Source: Candidatus Bathyarchaeota archaeon (GTDB lineage Archaea; Thermoproteota; Bathyarchaeia; 40CM-2-53-6; DTDX01). Taken from it: a stretch of DNA of 47,125 nucleotides. The stretch lies in contig JAGTRF010000002.1 in the NCBI GenBank assembly GCA_018396775.1, positions 78,069 to 125,193 of the forward strand, written 5' to 3'. Under the pieces are notes generated by a model that searched no databases, was not told where the DNA came from, and saw only the letters and a list, made by a program, of their open reading frames with translations. Position 1 is the first letter of the stretch, and the number at the start of each line of letters is the position of its first letter. The position numbers and the translations under genes are program-made. Below, one piece after another: positions 2,362-41,278 of the stretch.

Positions 2362-3249
2362 ATGAAAAGTTTACCTCCACCTAAAGAATATTTAACCTTA
2401 ATTAATAACGTTATGGAAATTCTTTTAAAAGAAAGAGAAACAAAACTTTTCAATTATGGTGAAGTTAACGGAGGCTTAATTAAAATTAATTTTAAGGGGC
2501 AACTTATTGTTATAGGAGATATTCACGGCGACCTTCAAAGCTTAAATTATATTCTTAAAGAAAGCAATTTTCTAAAATTTAAAGATTCTATGCTAATTTT
2601 TTTGGGGGATTACATTGATCGAGGAAAATATTCCCCACAAGTGTTGTTTAAAGTTTTAAGTTTAAAACTTAATTTTCCAAGTAGAGTTATTGCTTTAAGA
2701 GGTAATCATGAAGGTCCAGGGGATCTTCAACCTCTTCCTCACGATTTCCCACATCAGCTTACTCGCAATTACGGCGAGAATGGAAGAAAAATTTACATTA
2801 AAACTAGAGAGTTATTTAATGCTTTACATCACGCAGCTTTAGTTGAAGGAAGATATTTATTTCTTCACGGTGGACCACCCTATAACGCTTTCTCAATAGA
2901 AGATTACGCTAAAGCTCATGAAACTCACCCTGAAAAAAGTTTTCTTGAAGAAATTTTATGGAATGATCCTATAGAAAATATTGAAGGCGTTATCCCATCT
3001 CCAAGAGGTGCTGGAAAACTTTTCGGAGAAAACATTACAAATAATGCTTTAAAAATTTTTAACGTTAAAATAATTATTAGAGGTCATGAACCTAAAAACG
3101 AAGGCTTCAGCTTTAACCATAAGGGTAAAGTATTAACATTATTCTCTAGGTTAGGAGCCCCTTACTTTAATTCTTCAGCAAGTTACCTTGAAATAAACCA
3201 AGACTCTGGGAAACTTCAAATTAAAAAGTTTTCTAAAGCTTCAGATTAA
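2362..3249 (+). CDS. PPP-family metallophosphatase (PP1/PP2A-like)
   Basis: 295 residues with the full PPP signature: GDIHGD at 52-57, GDYIDRG at 82-88, RGNHE at 113-117, a downstream FLHGG (metal His) and IIRGHEP (last metal His). These bind two metal ions and the phosphate, so the enzyme should hydrolyse phosphomonoesters, probably on Ser/Thr of proteins. The length suits a catalytic core with no extra domain and no membrane segment. Archaeal PPP enzymes are usually Mn-dependent and cytoplasmic. A TATA-like AAATATAAATAA lies upstream near 2329-2340. Confidence 0.9.
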   Translation: MKSLPPPKEYLTLINNVMEILLKERETKLFNYGEVNGGLIKINFKGQLIVIGDIHGDLQSLNYILKESNFLKFKDSMLIFLGDYIDRGKYSPQVLFKVLSLKLNFPSRVIALRGNHEGPGDLQPLPHDFPHQLTRNYGENGRKIYIKTRELFNALHHAALVEGRYLFLHGGPPYNAFSIEDYAKAHETHPEKSFLEEILWNDPIENIEGVIPSPRGAGKLFGENITNNALKIFNVKIIIRGHEPKNEGFSFNHKGKVLTLFSRLGAPYFNSSASYLEINQDSGKLQIKKFSKASD

Positions 3250-3251
3250 GT

Positions 3252-3283
3252 AAAGCAAAAATAAAAATGTTTAAAACTGCTTT
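3252..3283. terminator. Possible weak terminator hairpin between convergent genes
   Basis: A short inverted repeat, AAAGCA at 3252-3257 and TGCTTT at 3278-3283 with a 20-base spacer, is followed by a T run in the 38-base gap between the phosphatase and guaB stop codons. The position is right for a terminator, but the stem is only 6 bp and archaeal termination mainly needs a T tract, so this is tentative. Confidence 0.25.
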
Positions 3284-3287
3284 TTTA

Positions 3288-4736
3288 TTATTCTAATCCA
3301 ACGCCTTTTGGTAAAAGCACATCATGAGGACTTGCTTCTTGAGCTCCTAAAGGTGTTAAAAGCGCCACTTCAGCTTTTTCCCATAATTCTTGAATGTTTC
3401 TTGCACCTGCATAACCCATAGCTGCTTGCAATCCTGATTTTAACTCTTGAACCACAACTTCCACCTCGCCTTTATAAGGAACCCATCCTTCTACGCCTTC
3501 AGCTAATTCTTTAGCTCCACTATAACGATCTATAGAGAATCTTTTAGCCATAGCTGAGGGGCTTCCCATACCTCTATATTGCTTATAATATCTTCCGCCT
3601 ATAGCTATTAATGTTCCTGGAGATTCTTTGCATCTAGCGAAAAGGTTTCCAATCATAACAGCTGAGGCGCCTAAAGCCAAAGCTAATGCAACATCACCCC
3701 CACATCTTATTCCTCCATCAGCTATAATAGGGATTTTTGCATTATAATTTTTTACAGCTTCAGCGGCTTGAGCTGTTGCATATAATGTTGGGGCTCCAGC
3801 TTTTGTAACTTCAGTTGTCGTGCATATCGAGCCTGAACCTATGCCAACTCTTAATGCAGCTATTTTATCAAGTTTTGTAACAGCATCTTCAGCAGCTTTA
3901 TATGTTCCTATATTTCCTACGACTACATCAGCGGAAACGTTTGAAAGAATTTTTTTCACAGCATTAAAAGCTTTAGAATTATGAAAATGAGCAACATCAA
4001 TAACAAGCACATCTATAATTTTATCAAGTTTCTCAGCTCTTTCAAAATCAAATGGAGATATAGCTGCACCACAAAGAAGTTTACCATCTTCATCTCGAGA
4101 TGCGTTAGGAAATTTTCCTCTAAGCAATATGTCTTTTACAGTTATTAATCCTTTAAGTCCCCCTTCTTTATCAACTAAAGGTAATTTTTCAATTCTATGT
4201 TTATGAAGAATGTCTTTAGCTTCCTCAATGCTTATTCCATAAGGTGCTGTAACAACATTTTTAGTCATTAAATCCTTAACTTTCAATGATAAATCAGCAA
4301 ATCTTACATCTCTTCCAGTTAATATCCCAACAACTTTACCATCCTCAACTACAGGTAAACCTGATATAGACTTCTCTCTCATTATTTTCAAGGCTGTTGC
4401 TATACTTTCATCTGGAGAAATAGTATAAACATTCTTTATTATAGTTGCTTCAGCCCGCTTTACTTTCTCAGCCATTTCAACTTGCTCTTGAACAGAGCAG
4501 TTTCTATGAAGAACTCCAAGGCCACCTTGCCTAGCTAAAGCTATAGCCATTTCGCTTTCAGTAACAGTATCCATAGGCGAAGAAATAAAAGGAATATTTA
4601 TAAAGTAATTTTTTGTAACCTGAGTTTTAACATTAACTTCTTTAGGATCAACTTCTGTCCAACCTGGAAGCAAAATAACATCTCGAAAAGTTATCGCTAA
4701 TTCAATATTTTTTAATTTATTTAGGAATTCAGGCAA
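3288..4736 (-). CDS. guaB: Inosine-5'-monophosphate dehydrogenase
   Basis: 482 residues, normal for IMPDH, which oxidises IMP to XMP with NAD+ as the committed step to GMP. The TIM barrel is interrupted by two CBS domains (about 97-150 and 155-207), which usually bind adenine or guanine nucleotides for allosteric control. The catalytic loop GSGSICTTTEV places the nucleophile at Cys305. ADGGIRCGGDVALAL and the flap with RY and GVEGWVPYKG identify IMPDH rather than GMP reductase. One deviation: the segment that usually reads D-T-A-H-G-H-S reads DVAHFHNS here. The start is TTG, with GAGG a few bases upstream. Confidence 0.95.
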   Translation of the reverse strand: MPEFLNKLKNIELAITFRDVILLPGWTEVDPKEVNVKTQVTKNYFINIPFISSPMDTVTESEMAIALARQGGLGVLHRNCSVQEQVEMAEKVKRAEATIIKNVYTISPDESIATALKIMREKSISGLPVVEDGKVVGILTGRDVRFADLSLKVKDLMTKNVVTAPYGISIEEAKDILHKHRIEKLPLVDKEGGLKGLITVKDILLRGKFPNASRDEDGKLLCGAAISPFDFERAEKLDKIIDVLVIDVAHFHNSKAFNAVKKILSNVSADVVVGNIGTYKAAEDAVTKLDKIAALRVGIGSGSICTTTEVTKAGAPTLYATAQAAEAVKNYNAKIPIIADGGIRCGGDVALALALGASAVMIGNLFARCKESPGTLIAIGGRYYKQYRGMGSPSAMAKRFSIDRYSGAKELAEGVEGWVPYKGEVEVVVQELKSGLQAAMGYAGARNIQELWEKAEVALLTPLGAQEASPHDVLLPKGVGLE

Positions 4737-36162: not shown

Positions 36163-37044
36163 TTAACTTGAATTTATGGTTTGTTTTGCTCCGCATATTA
36201 AGCAAAACTTTGCGTTAATTGGAATTTTAGCTCCACATTGAATGCAATATTTAGTTTCTTGAATTGTTGGTGGAACCAGGGGAATAGTAGTAGATGCTTT
36301 TGCGATCATACAGTAATAATAAATTGTCATGGCGATAAAGTATATTGGCGTAACTAAAGCTGAGATAATAGAGGAAATTAGGAAGCCGATTTGAATGGGG
36401 CTTCCCACTAAAAAAGCTTGGATTCTTCCACTTATGAATGATGCTAACCCAATTAAAATCATTAAGAATAATAATATGCCGAAAGTTTTAATCCATCTTT
36501 TAGCTACAAGATTTCTGCTTCTTTTTAGGCTTGCGATAATTCCTAAATTCTCTATTATAATAGCTGGAGTAAAGAGAAAGAATATTATTGATAAGATTAT
36601 TCCTGGAACTACTAGAAGCATAAATCCAATTGCAATTAATAAACCTGAAATAAAACTAGCTCCAAGTAGTGCGGGTAACTTTCTAATTACTATCTTAAAA
36701 GATTCTTTAAGGTTTATAGGTGTTTCTTCAAGCAAGCTAGATGTATATTTAACAGTTACTCCTCCAGCAATCATGTTGATTATCCAACTTAAAATTGTAG
36801 CGAACAGAATTGCAGTAAAGAAAACAATCACGCTTGGAATTAAATTATTTAAATTACCTCTTATATAACTCGTTAAATTTAAAGGTAGGGAAATTGAAAC
36901 TACGCTTAATATTAATCCCGTTAACACGCTTGAAATAAGCAATGGGGTAAACAAATTTATAAAATGTGCTTTATAAAAATTAATTGCTTGCGTTATAACT
37001 TCAAAAGTATCAAGTTCTTTTAAAGGTTTCTTAATTTGACTCAT
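36163..37044 (-). CDS. Multi-pass membrane protein with C-terminal zinc ribbon
   Basis: 293 residues: about six hydrophobic segments (including LLISSVLTGLILSVVSISL and LLVVPGIILSIIFFLFTPAI), resembling the membrane domain found beside glycerophosphodiester phosphodiesterases, and a C-terminal zinc ribbon YCIQCGAKIPINAKFCLICG (about 265-284). The ATG, behind GGGGAGG, lies 14 bases inside the end of the half-MFS gene, so translation is probably coupled. Its organisation echoes the DUF4013 gene at 32802. Function unknown. Confidence 0.75.
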   Translation of the reverse strand: MSQIKKPLKELDTFEVITQAINFYKAHFINLFTPLLISSVLTGLILSVVSISLPLNLTSYIRGNLNNLIPSVIVFFTAILFATILSWIINMIAGGVTVKYTSSLLEETPINLKESFKIVIRKLPALLGASFISGLLIAIGFMLLVVPGIILSIIFFLFTPAIIIENLGIIASLKRSRNLVAKRWIKTFGILLFLMILIGLASFISGRIQAFLVGSPIQIGFLISSIISALVTPIYFIAMTIYYYCMIAKASTTIPLVPPTIQETKYCIQCGAKIPINAKFCLICGAKQTINSS

Positions 37045-37603
37045 TAACCTCCCCTTTTATAAGATTTAAAGCTTTAATTGTAAGCAGCACTCCAATTAAG
37101 ATTAAAATTGAGCATAAAATAAATGTTCGCCTAAATCCTATCGAATCGGAAAGAAAGCCTCCAAGCCCTGGTCCAATTATCCATCCAAGATACCAAGTCA
37201 TATTGTATAACCCTATAGCCTCTCCTTTTTGTTCCGTTGGAACAGAATCAGTTACTAAATACATTCCTGAAACTCCTAAAGCTGCCCATGCTATTCCTTC
37301 AATAGCTTGAATAATACACATGCCAATTAAATTTCTAGCTAAGGAGTATGAAAGAAACACAATAAAGAAAAGAGCCATTGAAACAAGTAAAATTACTTTA
37401 GAACCTATTTTATCTGAGGTTCTCCCAAATAAAGGTGCCGCAACAGCGCCTCCAATAGATCCTATGGTGAAAACTATGCCTATTTGAGTTTTTGAAGCAC
37501 CTAAATCAGCTATGAAAAGAGATAATATAGAGTAAATGATCCCAGAGCAAATGGTAAGCGGGAAAAGAGCTGCACAAATCAAATAAATATTCTTTCTTAC
37601 CAT
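37031..37603 (-). CDS. Half-size MFS transporter (six helices)
   Basis: 190 residues, six hydrophobic helices. The first loop has the MFS motif A GRTSDKIGSKVI, and the later GLGGFLSDSIGFRR matches the end of the N-terminal bundle. Full MFS proteins are about 400 residues with twelve helices. No C-terminal half follows in any frame: a different family starts at 37044. It may be a genuine six-helix protein that dimerises, or a truncated gene. ATG behind GGGGGAG. Confidence 0.8.
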   Translation of the reverse strand: MVRKNIYLICAALFPLTICSGIIYSILSLFIADLGASKTQIGIVFTIGSIGGAVAAPLFGRTSDKIGSKVILLVSMALFFIVFLSYSLARNLIGMCIIQAIEGIAWAALGVSGMYLVTDSVPTEQKGEAIGLYNMTWYLGWIIGPGLGGFLSDSIGFRRTFILCSILILIGVLLTIKALNLIKGEVNESN

Positions 37604-37879
37604 AAAACTCCCCCATTAATAAAGCAAATTTTATTAGAATTCTTAACCTATTTTTAAAGCGAGGTAAAAAACAATTTACTAAAGAAGTTGCACAATAATG
37701 TTTTCCTAATGTTATATTTAAAGATTACTTTAATTAGTTTGGTTTTAGTTTTTCATATGACAATATATATTCTATATAATTAAATATTCTTGCAAGAAAA
37801 TTAAGCATTCAGCATTATTGAATTAACCAAATTTTTAATGAAAAGCCTTAAATCTTAAAAATGTTTAAAATTTCTATTA
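37604..37879. other. Divergent AT-rich intergenic region
   Basis: 276 bases between the half-MFS gene (leftward) and the large regulator (rightward). TATA-like AATATATATTCTATATAA near 37763-37780 and several T/A tracts could serve either promoter. I see no clear gene, hairpin or repeat. Because the next gene encodes a DNA-binding protein, binding sites are likely here. Confidence 0.4.
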
Positions 37880-40069
37880 ATGATTAGAAAAACTTTTTCT
37901 AAATTAAACTTAATTCAAGATGAACTCTTTAAAATTTTTAGGGAAACTCCTTTAAAATTAATTAAGTTTTCAGCAATTTTAAAAAGCATTTTCAAGAAAT
38001 TAAGCGTTGATGAAGGCTTAAAAAATGAAGTTTTAATTCTTTTATGCAAAGGCTTAACTTTTAATAAAAGCTTTAGAAAAATTCCAAAGCTTGAACAATT
38101 AATTATTGAATATGAAAGCTCAAATGAGCCTTTACTAGATTACGCTAAATGTTTTTTTGCTAAAGCTCTTTCTAACTTTTTTAACGAGAAAATTAGTAAA
38201 TATAAAAATGAAGCGGCTAGAAAAATTTTTCTTAGAGATTTATCTGATTTAACAGATATTCTACACTCAATACCTGTGGAAAAGCTTTTAACAAAAATTG
38301 AAAGCCTTCAATTTAATGAAAAAACAAGCGTAATTTTTATGGATTTTATTAATGAGTTGAAAACGCTTATTGATAAAAAATGGAATCCAGATTTAGAAGT
38401 TGAAAGAAAAATTAATGAAGCTCAAAAAGAAATTGAGTTTTACTTATCTAAAATGGAAAATTTATCTGGTTTTAAGCTCGGCTCTATTGGAAACTATCAA
38501 GAGGGGTTGCTTATCCACTGCTTTTTTGATCCTTGGTATAATGATAACTCATCGCTTTGGGGAGTTAGCTTCTATCCAATTTTGAATATATTAAATTTGC
38601 AACCGCCATATATTTTTTTTGATGCTTTAAGAAGAGGTTTATTAGCTAGAGAAGCAGCTCACTTTTTTACTCCCAATATAATAGAGAAAATGGAAAGAGT
38701 CTACGAGCAAATGGATTACTGTGCCTACAAGATTCTTAACGATTTTGAAGCTGAATTCTGGGAGTTTGCTAGGCATGGATTAAGAGAGGAATCTAAAGAA
38801 TTCGATGGAATAAATTATTATTTAGAGTGGGAAGCTATTGTTGGATGGGACTTCTTAAATAAAGTTTTCTCTAGATTAAAAAGCATAAACCGTTTTAAAT
38901 CTGAAATCAACTTTTCAGAATATCAATCAATAGTTGATTCTTTAGCATTAAAGCCTAAGCATGTTTCTTTAACTCAAGAAGAGCTTTCAATATTAAATTT
39001 TCTATCTGAAAAACCCTTGATTTCAGTTAGCGAGCTTTCTCAAAAAACTGGAGTAAGCTTACCTACTGTTCAAAAGCTTCTTAAAACCTTAAGGCTTAAA
39101 GCTAATATTTGGCCAAGCGTTTTAGTAGATTTAAATAAGCTTAACATAACTTGCTTTTTAACACTATTAAAAATTAAGCCGCATGTATTAAATGAGTTAA
39201 TTAACATTATTTGGCTTTTCCCTTATTGCGGAAGAATCTATAAAGTTTTTGGGGAAACAAATTTATTATGTTACTTTCAAATTCCATTAAGTTATGAAAA
39301 CTTTATTTATGATTATTTAACTATTCTTAAAAGAGCAGATGTAATAGAGAAAAGCTTTATTTTTAAAGTTGAAGAGTTCTATTATAATTTTAATCCAAGA
39401 TTTTATAACGCGAGCATTAGCGATTGGGATGTGCCTTGGGATGAATGGGGTTTATGGCTTAAAGAATATCTTTTAACAAAAGGATTGCTTCATGTGATTA
39501 AAGGTAGACCTAAAGAAGGGAAAAGAAAAATTAAGGTAAACAAAATCGACCTTGAATTAATTCGTTTATTAAGAGTTAATGCGCGATTTCCTTTTTCTGA
39601 AATAGGGTTTAAGCTAGGCGTTAGCGGAGCTTATATTGGTCAGAGAGTTAGGCATTTAATAAACTCTCAAGTGATAACCCCAACAGTTGCTTCTTTTAGG
39701 ATTGGTTTAGATGAAGCTGTTTTCGTAACTTTTGATTGTGAAGAAGAAGATTTAACAGCTATTAAATCAGCTTTCGACGAGTTACCTATGTGGCAAGGAT
39801 TCAAAATAAGCGGCGATATGGAGGGAGTAGCATCGATGATTTATATTCCAACAGGGGAAACTCAAGAGCTTCTCTACGCTATAGATAAATATTTGATTGA
39901 ATCTAAATTAGTTAATAAATATATGATTCATGTTATAGAGCGATGGACTGGAATGAGAAGATGGCTTCCAATAGAATTATATACAGATGGTGCAGGTTGG
40001 ATTTTTGATAAAAATGAATATTTAAACCAGTTGAAAGATGAAGTTGAAAGCTTAACTAATAAAAGTTAA
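37880..40069 (+). CDS. Large two-module HTH regulator (Lrp/AsnC-like repeats)
   Basis: 729 residues, very large for a regulator. Residues 1-350 are a predominantly helical domain that I do not recognise (contains LREEAAH-like REAAHFFTP near 256 and DFEAEFWEFARHG near 292). Two modules follow, each an HTH plus a sensing-type domain: HTH1 near 365-405 (LISVSELSQKTGVSLPTVQK) and HTH2 near 552-595 (FPFSEIGFKLGVSGAYIGQR), each continued by an alpha/beta region akin to the Lrp ligand domain. It probably binds DNA and regulates the MFS gene that starts 21 bases downstream. Confidence 0.7.
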   Translation: MIRKTFSKLNLIQDELFKIFRETPLKLIKFSAILKSIFKKLSVDEGLKNEVLILLCKGLTFNKSFRKIPKLEQLIIEYESSNEPLLDYAKCFFAKALSNFFNEKISKYKNEAARKIFLRDLSDLTDILHSIPVEKLLTKIESLQFNEKTSVIFMDFINELKTLIDKKWNPDLEVERKINEAQKEIEFYLSKMENLSGFKLGSIGNYQEGLLIHCFFDPWYNDNSSLWGVSFYPILNILNLQPPYIFFDALRRGLLAREAAHFFTPNIIEKMERVYEQMDYCAYKILNDFEAEFWEFARHGLREESKEFDGINYYLEWEAIVGWDFLNKVFSRLKSINRFKSEINFSEYQSIVDSLALKPKHVSLTQEELSILNFLSEKPLISVSELSQKTGVSLPTVQKLLKTLRLKANIWPSVLVDLNKLNITCFLTLLKIKPHVLNELINIIWLFPYCGRIYKVFGETNLLCYFQIPLSYENFIYDYLTILKRADVIEKSFIFKVEEFYYNFNPRFYNASISDWDVPWDEWGLWLKEYLLTKGLLHVIKGRPKEGKRKIKVNKIDLELIRLLRVNARFPFSEIGFKLGVSGAYIGQRVRHLINSQVITPTVASFRIGLDEAVFVTFDCEEEDLTAIKSAFDELPMWQGFKISGDMEGVASMIYIPTGETQELLYAIDKYLIESKLVNKYMIHVIERWTGMRRWLPIELYTDGAGWIFDKNEYLNQLKDEVESLTNKS

Positions 40070-40090
40070 GCTTTAAAGGAGTTTTCTTTA

Positions 40091-41278
40091 ATGATTAAAA
40101 AAGCTTATTTAATAGAGCTTCTAAAATTTAAGAAAAATTTATGGTTTTTAGCTTTCGCTGCTTTTCTTCCTTACTTTTCTTCAGGAATGATTGCTGCTTT
40201 CATAATGGTTTGGCTTAGGGAACTTGGGGCTTCTTTTTTAAATGTTGGCATTGTAAACGGTATCAGCAATTTAGCTTTAGCCTTATCATTTTTTATTGGA
40301 GGTTTTTTAAGCGATAATTACGGTGGAAAAAAAATATTTTTCTTAGGTTTAATTTTATCTCTTTTATCCTCAATATTTTATGGAGCTACAGGCTGGCTTT
40401 TTACTTGGCTTCTAGTAGCTTTAGGTTTAATTTTGGGTCGAATATCTATAGGGTTTAGAGAAGCTTCTTCATTTCAAATAGTTTATAAAGCTTCAGAAAA
40501 ACATAAGCATGCTTCATCATTTGGGCTTTTATCAACTTTTAAGCAGCTTGGTTATGTAATCGGCCCTGTTACAGGAGGGTTAATTGCATATATTTTTGGG
40601 TTAAAAACCCCCTTTATTTTAGCTCCTCCAATAACTCTTGCAGCAATAATGCTTACCTCTAAATTAAATTTAGGAGAGAGTAAAGTTAAATTAAGGTTTA
40701 GCTTAAAAGAAGCTAAGAAAGCTTTAAGCTTAAACTCTGGAGTAACGATTTTAATTTTTATCTCCTTATGGGATCAATTTTTCTTAGAGATTGGAAACCC
40801 CTTCTATATGATTTTCCTTAATGAAGAATTTAAAGCACCATCTTATATACTCGGTTTATGTTTTACACTTATGTCTTTAAGCACACTTGTTTTCAGCATG
40901 ATCAGCGGAGTCGCATCAGATTTAATTAAAAAAAGGAAACCTTCAATAATTTTTAGTGCTTTAGTAATGGCTTTAAGCGTTGGTTTAGTAGCCTTCGCAT
41001 TTAACCCATGGATGTTTGTAGCTAGCTATTTTCTAGCTGGAGTTTCAACAGCAATCTCTAATACAGCTATTCCATCTTATTTTGCAGATGTTTTAAAAGA
41101 TAAAGCTTCAACAATTTTTGGGTTTAGGTTTGCAGCTATGTACTTTACTGGATGTTTTTCACCGTTAATTTCAGGATGGGTAATTCAAAACTTTCAGTCT
41201 TTAAGGTTACCTTTCATCATAAATTTTGCAGGTTTAATTATTGAAATTCCTCTTTTAATAGCTTTCTTTAAAGAATAA
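40091..41278 (+). CDS. MFS transporter
   Basis: 395 residues and twelve hydrophobic helices. MFS motif A appears as GGFLSDNYGGKKIF between helices 2 and 3, and the second-half counterpart as SGVASDLIKKRKPS. The substrate is unreadable; the family covers drugs, sugars and metabolites. AAGGAG lies 9 bases before the ATG. It follows the two-module regulator by 21 bases, suggesting that the regulator senses a transported compound. Confidence 0.88.
   Translation: MIKKAYLIELLKFKKNLWFLAFAAFLPYFSSGMIAAFIMVWLRELGASFLNVGIVNGISNLALALSFFIGGFLSDNYGGKKIFFLGLILSLLSSIFYGATGWLFTWLLVALGLILGRISIGFREASSFQIVYKASEKHKHASSFGLLSTFKQLGYVIGPVTGGLIAYIFGLKTPFILAPPITLAAIMLTSKLNLGESKVKLRFSLKEAKKALSLNSGVTILIFISLWDQFFLEIGNPFYMIFLNEEFKAPSYILGLCFTLMSLSTLVFSMISGVASDLIKKRKPSIIFSALVMALSVGLVAFAFNPWMFVASYFLAGVSTAISNTAIPSYFADVLKDKASTIFGFRFAAMYFTGCFSPLISGWVIQNFQSLRLPFIINFAGLIIEIPLLIAFFKE

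Follow-up and report, generated by a model that had tools for sequence, protein, structure and literature searches.

The window, as we call the 47,125-nucleotide stretch of DNA that was analysed (a Candidatus Bathyarchaeota archaeon, contig JAGTRF010000002.1, positions 78,069 to 125,193), contains an open reading frame (ORF) for a 729-residue putative regulator. Its N-terminal domain (N-domain) is followed by two modules, each consisting of a helix-turn-helix (HTH) and a sensor. The source genome, G000 in our set, has a size of 1.33 Mb and an estimated completeness of 98.5%. The original prediction, which was made from the DNA alone, is confirmed: the ORF carries the AsnC-type HTH twice in Pfam, and the gene of a major facilitator superfamily (MFS) transporter lies 21 bases past its stop (Table 1). 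Each module is closed by a tryptophan-rich (W-rich) tail, a feature absent from that prediction. The regulator is a real protein, because non-synonymous divergence (dN) from the congener G001 is far below synonymous divergence (dS), both for the whole chain (dN 0.14, dS 1.02) and for the N-domain alone (dN 0.142, dS 1.12). The named relatives of the gene come from three Bathyarchaeota metagenome-assembled genomes (MAGs) and one MAG titled “archaeon”.

Table 1. Features of the regulator gene and its surroundings (positions in the window; aa, amino acids)
Feature	Position	Strand	Remarks
190-aa MFS protein, N-terminal half only	37031..37603	-	Divergent from regulator; half-length in congener too
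Divergent intergenic region, candidate operator	37604..37879		Two-species comparison only, weak
Regulator, N-domain and two HTH-sensor-tail modules	37880..40069	+	ATG start, 729 aa
N-domain, residues 1-358, no recognised family	37880..38953	+	Conservation, fold model, profile searches
AsnC-type winged HTH 1, residues 364-410	38969..39109	+	Pfam
Lrp-like sensor 1 (beta-alpha-beta-beta-alpha-beta), residues 411-500	39110..39379	+	Model, hhalign, structural match
W-rich tail 1, residues 501-545	39380..39514	+	W516, W520, W523 invariant in six
AsnC-type winged HTH 2, residues 550-597	39527..39670	+	Pfam, PDB sequence match
Lrp-like sensor 2, residues 598-690	39671..39949	+	hhalign
W-rich tail 2, residues 691-729	39950..40066	+	W707 invariant in six
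MFS transporter, 395 aa	40091..41278	+	Probably same operon as regulator; linkage within genus only

The Pfam models PF13404 and PF13412 matched the regulator with 47.3 bits (cut-off 27) and 46.6 bits (cut-off 21.9), and the HTH stretches were placed near residues 369-404 and 555-593. Aligned with each other by hhalign, the modules matched over 165 columns that span HTH, sensor and W-rich tail (probability 98.2%, E 3e-14); judged from this alignment, they are an internal duplication. Against eleven Lrp-type proteins from the window genome and its relatives, both modules aligned co-linearly (E 4e-16 for module 1, 5e-18 for module 2). Sensor 1 matched the Lrp sensor even after removal of the HTH (probability 77.9%, E 1.8e-5), and the PDB yielded PH0140 as a sequence match to module 2 (E 5.3e-6). 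The AlphaFold model of the full chain shows the beta-alpha-beta-beta-alpha-beta order after the first HTH, at a mean predicted local distance difference test score (pLDDT) of only 43.3. With this low-confidence model, VIA-align ranked NirDL first (residues 366-724, Z 9.6, root-mean-square deviation (rmsd) 7.1, 163 aligned residues) and the stand-alone Lrp sensor FFRP-DM1 third (residues 423-498, Z 9.0, rmsd 2.1, 73 aligned). The tandem of Lrp-like HTH-sensor modules is thus borne out by the Pfam hits, the duplication, the co-linear alignments and the structural match.

Several observations weigh against reading the protein as an Lrp-like regulator. Sensor 2 alone is not confidently aligned to the Lrp sensor (probability 3%, E 0.015), and the sensor model PF01037 (AsnC_trans_reg) matches neither sensor when hits up to E 1 are considered; in the window genome it occurs at 14 places, the regulator gene not among them. 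The structure models are poor, with the N-domain reaching a mean pLDDT of 49.9 in its own model, and this domain could be an enzyme. Finally, the neighbouring gene varies between lineages, so that no single target is fixed. The modules are Lrp-like, yet we do not class the protein as an Lrp member, because it departs from that family in size, in module number (729 aa with two HTHs and two sensors versus about 150 aa with one of each) and in PF01037. A typical Lrp monomer has about 15 kDa and dimerises through its sensor domains, according to excerpts of PMC2995911. Given this mode of dimerisation, and since the top structural match NirDL consists of two fused AsnC-like units, a built-in dimer formed from a single chain, as originally suggested, is plausible.

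The tandem arrangement by itself is, by profile comparison, not unusual, because the modules match a two-module family that is common in the phylum. A profile of residues 360-729 was used in a census of 398 genomes of the phylum, with scoring limited to the top five candidates of each genome. At E <= 1e-15 it matched 105 of them, about 62 (counted by hand) over 300 or more of the 360 positions. In loci L016-L034, 25 ORFs were matched end to end (E 1.2e-36 to 1.9e-26). Among the two-module matches listed, ORFs longer than 446 aa were found in G000 and G001 only; the short relatives (e.g. in L017, L019 and L083) are uncharacterised proteins of 371-446 aa. As a side observation, several genomes of family f3 carry convergent paralogous pairs of short two-module proteins about 60 bases apart (L019:1423-2634 (+) and 2697-3995 (-)), and such pairs are likewise present in L021, L022, L024, L025, L026 and L027.

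The unusual feature is the N-domain of about 358 residues. In a census of 256 genomes of the class, which was also searched for the neighbouring genes discussed below, its profile matched seven (G000, G001, G006, G036, G038, G049 and G058). Among 300 genomes of the phylum it found G000 and G001 plus one chance match (G479, locus L050, E 4.9e-4, positions 111-210), which was rejected because the ORFs of that locus show no apparent HTH-sensor module. The same fusion is present in all six genes seen whole; the gene of G049 is cut by a contig end. This truncated copy (L015/L042) was included in analyses A1, A2, A3 and A7 but used neither for the tree nor for the conservation counts. The latter are averages over 14 pairs among the six complete long proteins, the pair G000-G001 being excluded.

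By this measure, no other part of the regulator is as well conserved as residues 201-300 (mean identity 47.9%; 53.9% within residues 239-284). The corresponding values are 28.5% and 34.8% for sensors 1 and 2, 34.0% and 44.2% for the two HTHs, and 20.7% for the first 84 residues of the N-domain. Invariant positions in the N-domain include R251, R257, E258, E276, Q277, Y280, W294, R298, H299 and R302. Owing to the high identity and the invariant Arg, Glu, His and Trp residues, the conserved core resembles a site for binding or catalysis. The original prediction had called some 350 residues of this domain helical. In the AlphaFold model, built from five alignment rows, this applies to residues 1-190 (pLDDT mostly 50-83); beyond residue 190 the pLDDT falls under 50, and since residues 191-358 are not confidently modelled, the term has to be limited to the first half.

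With the N-domain as query, Pfam (E up to 10), PHROGs and PDB profiles returned only scattered weak matches. The best one, DASH_Spc34 (E 6.4e-4, in two of the seven members), as well as MyTH4 and a designed helical protein, were dismissed as chance similarities of coiled coils. A search of viral_contigs gave 75 pattern matches and no relative, and Foldseek found nothing at E <= 0.001, which says little given the low-confidence model.

In the tree, the six complete long regulators form one clade (support 100/100). The window regulator joins those of G038 and G058, which belong to other orders, before those of G006 and G036 from its own order, a grouping that either transfer or differential loss would account for.

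On balance, we think that the 729-residue protein is probably an Lrp-like regulator that forms a pseudo-dimer from a single chain and carries a new input domain; it would regulate its own gene and control flanking genes. With a pair of AsnC-type winged helices and a pair of putative ferredoxin-like sensors in one chain, a single polypeptide would probably adopt a pseudo-dimeric fold. The large input domain would have been gained in one clade of the two-module family. It may bind a signal, be it a small molecule or a protein partner, and thereby alter the position of both HTHs on the promoter. The predicted binding site is the divergent intergenic region beside the regulator's own gene; across genomes, such gaps measure about 230-315 bases, and divergent gene pairs are a common setting of autoregulators. 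In G038, G058 and G049 the regulator would control a divergent gene with a V4R domain; its targets within the window's genus would be the genes of the half-MFS protein and the MFS transporter.

The V4R gene deserves closer attention. In the three genomes just named it stands divergently beside the regulator with about 314 bases between the genes, and PF02830 was matched in both V4R proteins scanned. With the V4R proteins of these genomes as a profile, orthologues (E<1e-30) were called in five of the 256 class genomes, all of which are among the seven with the regulator. G000 (8.1e-45) and G001 (3.4e-38) are included here, although neither was used to build the profile. The next matches are at 1.5e-16 (a second copy in G038) and 4e-12, and any V4R at E <= 0.001 occurs in 89 of the 256. 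In 200 genomes of the phylum, the profile found G000, G001 and one match at 1.5e-11 (E <= 1e-10). If relatedness is ignored, the chance that five of five V4R genomes fall within seven of 256 is about 2e-9; three families are involved. The 44 loci of the short two-module family, one single-module Lrp included (L016-L034 and L083-L107), showed no orthologue of the V4R or MFS protein within flanks of about 1.5 kb on either side. As far as gene content tells, the V4R protein is a better-kept companion of the regulator than the MFS transporter, and it would be either a target or a sensor partner.

The latter option leads to a different explanation, a split redox or ligand switch of the MsvR kind, in which the V4R protein would be a sensor that lost its HTH, the 729-residue protein its DNA-binding partner and the N-domain the docking surface. 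For both V4R proteins scanned, the top NCBIfam match is MsvR, at positions 129-236 and 130-236 of 236 (E 2.5e-17 and 3.5e-14), which covers the sensor half and not the HTH. All five orthologues have a Cys spacing of 3-11-26-8. In excerpts of PMC3729527, the MsvR residues C206, C232 and C240, 26 and 8 apart, are singly substituted in a study of redox-dependent DNA binding, and the last three of the five V4R cysteines share this spacing. However, the scores of 63 and 53 bits are far under the equivalog cut-off of 220. In the window's genus the V4R gene is located on another contig (G000:C7, G001:C2), and G006 and G036, whose regulators are the most distant ones, have no V4R match. Moreover, co-occurrence does not show contact, and the V4R gene may simply be a target. 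We therefore regard the split switch as possible and rather unlikely. The same doubt applies to a signalling pair in which an uncatalogued sensory or docking N-domain on a covalent Lrp-like pseudo-dimer is read together with the detached, MsvR-like V4R protein as a sensor for redox state or a hydrophobic ligand. Were this pair to exist, it would amount to a one-component regulator divided between two proteins, with a double Lrp as its new chassis.

That the N-domain senses the substrate of the MFS transporter, as first proposed, was not borne out. In the congener, the order half-MFS, regulator, MFS is kept, with a gap of 19 bases on the same strand between the latter two, similar to the 21 bases in the window. 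Beyond these two genomes of a single genus, a search for the same gene pair in relatives found no such linkage, a result that the original prediction had named as refuting it: the gene downstream of the regulator differs in G038, G058 and G036, and in G006 and G049 this side lies entirely or almost entirely beyond the contig end. MFS orthologues (E <= 1e-30) are present in 3 of the 256 genomes, namely G000, G001 and G086, the last without the regulator, versus seven with the N-domain, whose core is strongly kept in genomes lacking this transporter. Because the pairing with the MFS gene is kept nowhere else, the idea would apply at most to the window's genus, and we consider a transporter-linked regulator improbable.

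The half-MFS proteins on the other side of the regulator match the first half of MFS_1. Those of the window and of the congener (L051:12927-13481 (+), 184 aa) share 77.6% identity (dN 0.153, dS 0.79). Being half-length in two species at these values, the gene was rejected as fresh pseudogene debris and may encode a working half-transporter. The best-kept intergenic block between the congeners, an AT-rich near-palindrome at 37707-37733, might serve as an operator or just be part of a promoter; a repeat search upstream of the regulator gave AT-rich partial repeats only. Two further neighbours were noted. A threonyl-tRNA-synthetase-like gene, labelled from sequence reading, is located no more than about 3.3 kb from the regulator in G038, G058 and G006 (L052:3096-4952, L039:8822-10687, L040:1-1821) and not in the window; this is an old shared neighbourhood. 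In G006, the regulator is directly preceded, on its own strand, by the gene of a 185-aa membrane-type protein (L040:2263-2820), a possible transporter of a different kind.

Two enzyme-like readings complete the list. The N-domain could be a degenerate metallopeptidase-like (zincin) domain that serves as a sensor: its core L-R-R-G-L-L-A-R-E-A-A-H/R, with E-Q-x-D-Y 18 residues beyond the Glu, is suggestive of a zincin helix pair. HExxH is found in none of the seven long proteins, though, no zincin matches the domain in Pfam or the PDB and the fold of the core is not predicted, which makes this very improbable. Least credible is that the protein is no regulator but a tetrapyrrole enzyme, such as a fused one resembling sirohaem decarboxylase (NirDL/AhbAB). 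This was considered because the top structural match, NirDL, is a single-chain, double AsnC-like protein, and the V4R family is named after the vinyl reductase of bacteriochlorophyll synthesis. The AhbA/B motif HXYXR is absent from the seven long proteins (one truncated) and from all 31 two-module rows, PF17805 from the regulator and all seven host genomes, and ALAD (PF00490) from the same seven genomes, three of which are at least 90% complete with low contamination (controls, 11 of 14 positive). The lack of ALAD suggests that these genomes have no ordinary tetrapyrrole synthesis.

We return to the probable pseudo-dimeric regulator with an added input domain. Lrp-like regulators are abundant in archaea, and the described ones are mostly small and work as dimers or larger assemblies. 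A chain with two modules would fix the dimer, so that each half can specialise. Among the papers listed in a literature search, mostly outside subscription journals, none was on an archaeal regulator that combines an AsnC-type tandem with an N-domain of this kind, nor on V4R in Bathyarchaeia. In this group, of which few members have been cultivated, the V4R companion is a concrete, testable candidate for a redox or ligand signal. The protein itself is a real, somewhat unusual putative regulator, and the point of interest is its uncatalogued N-domain, a strongly conserved putative input that matches no profile searched.

In comparison with known systems, the regulator shares with Lrp/AsnC proteins such as PH0140, PH1519 and LrpA the AsnC-type winged HTH and the co-linear profile alignment; the sensor behind the HTH may have the ferredoxin-like fold of the RAM domain, as judged from sensor 1. 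It differs from them in its two modules per chain, the W-rich tails, the N-domain and sensors below PF01037 detection. NirDL, the fused sirohaem decarboxylase (PDB 4ch7, 4czc; for the H. thermophilus enzyme, excerpts of PMC4835899), likewise has two AsnC-like units in a single chain, and HXYXR is the motif reported for AhbA/B (excerpts of PMC4145669); the regulator has neither this motif nor PF17805, and its hosts have no ALAD. The V4R companion corresponds to MsvR, the V4R redox regulator of methanogens, in the V4R half and the 26-8 Cys spacing, whereas it lacks an HTH of its own, has two extra Cys in a C-x2-C and scores far under the cut-off. The 371-446-aa two-module proteins match residues 359-729 of the regulator end to end and differ from it in lacking the N-domain.

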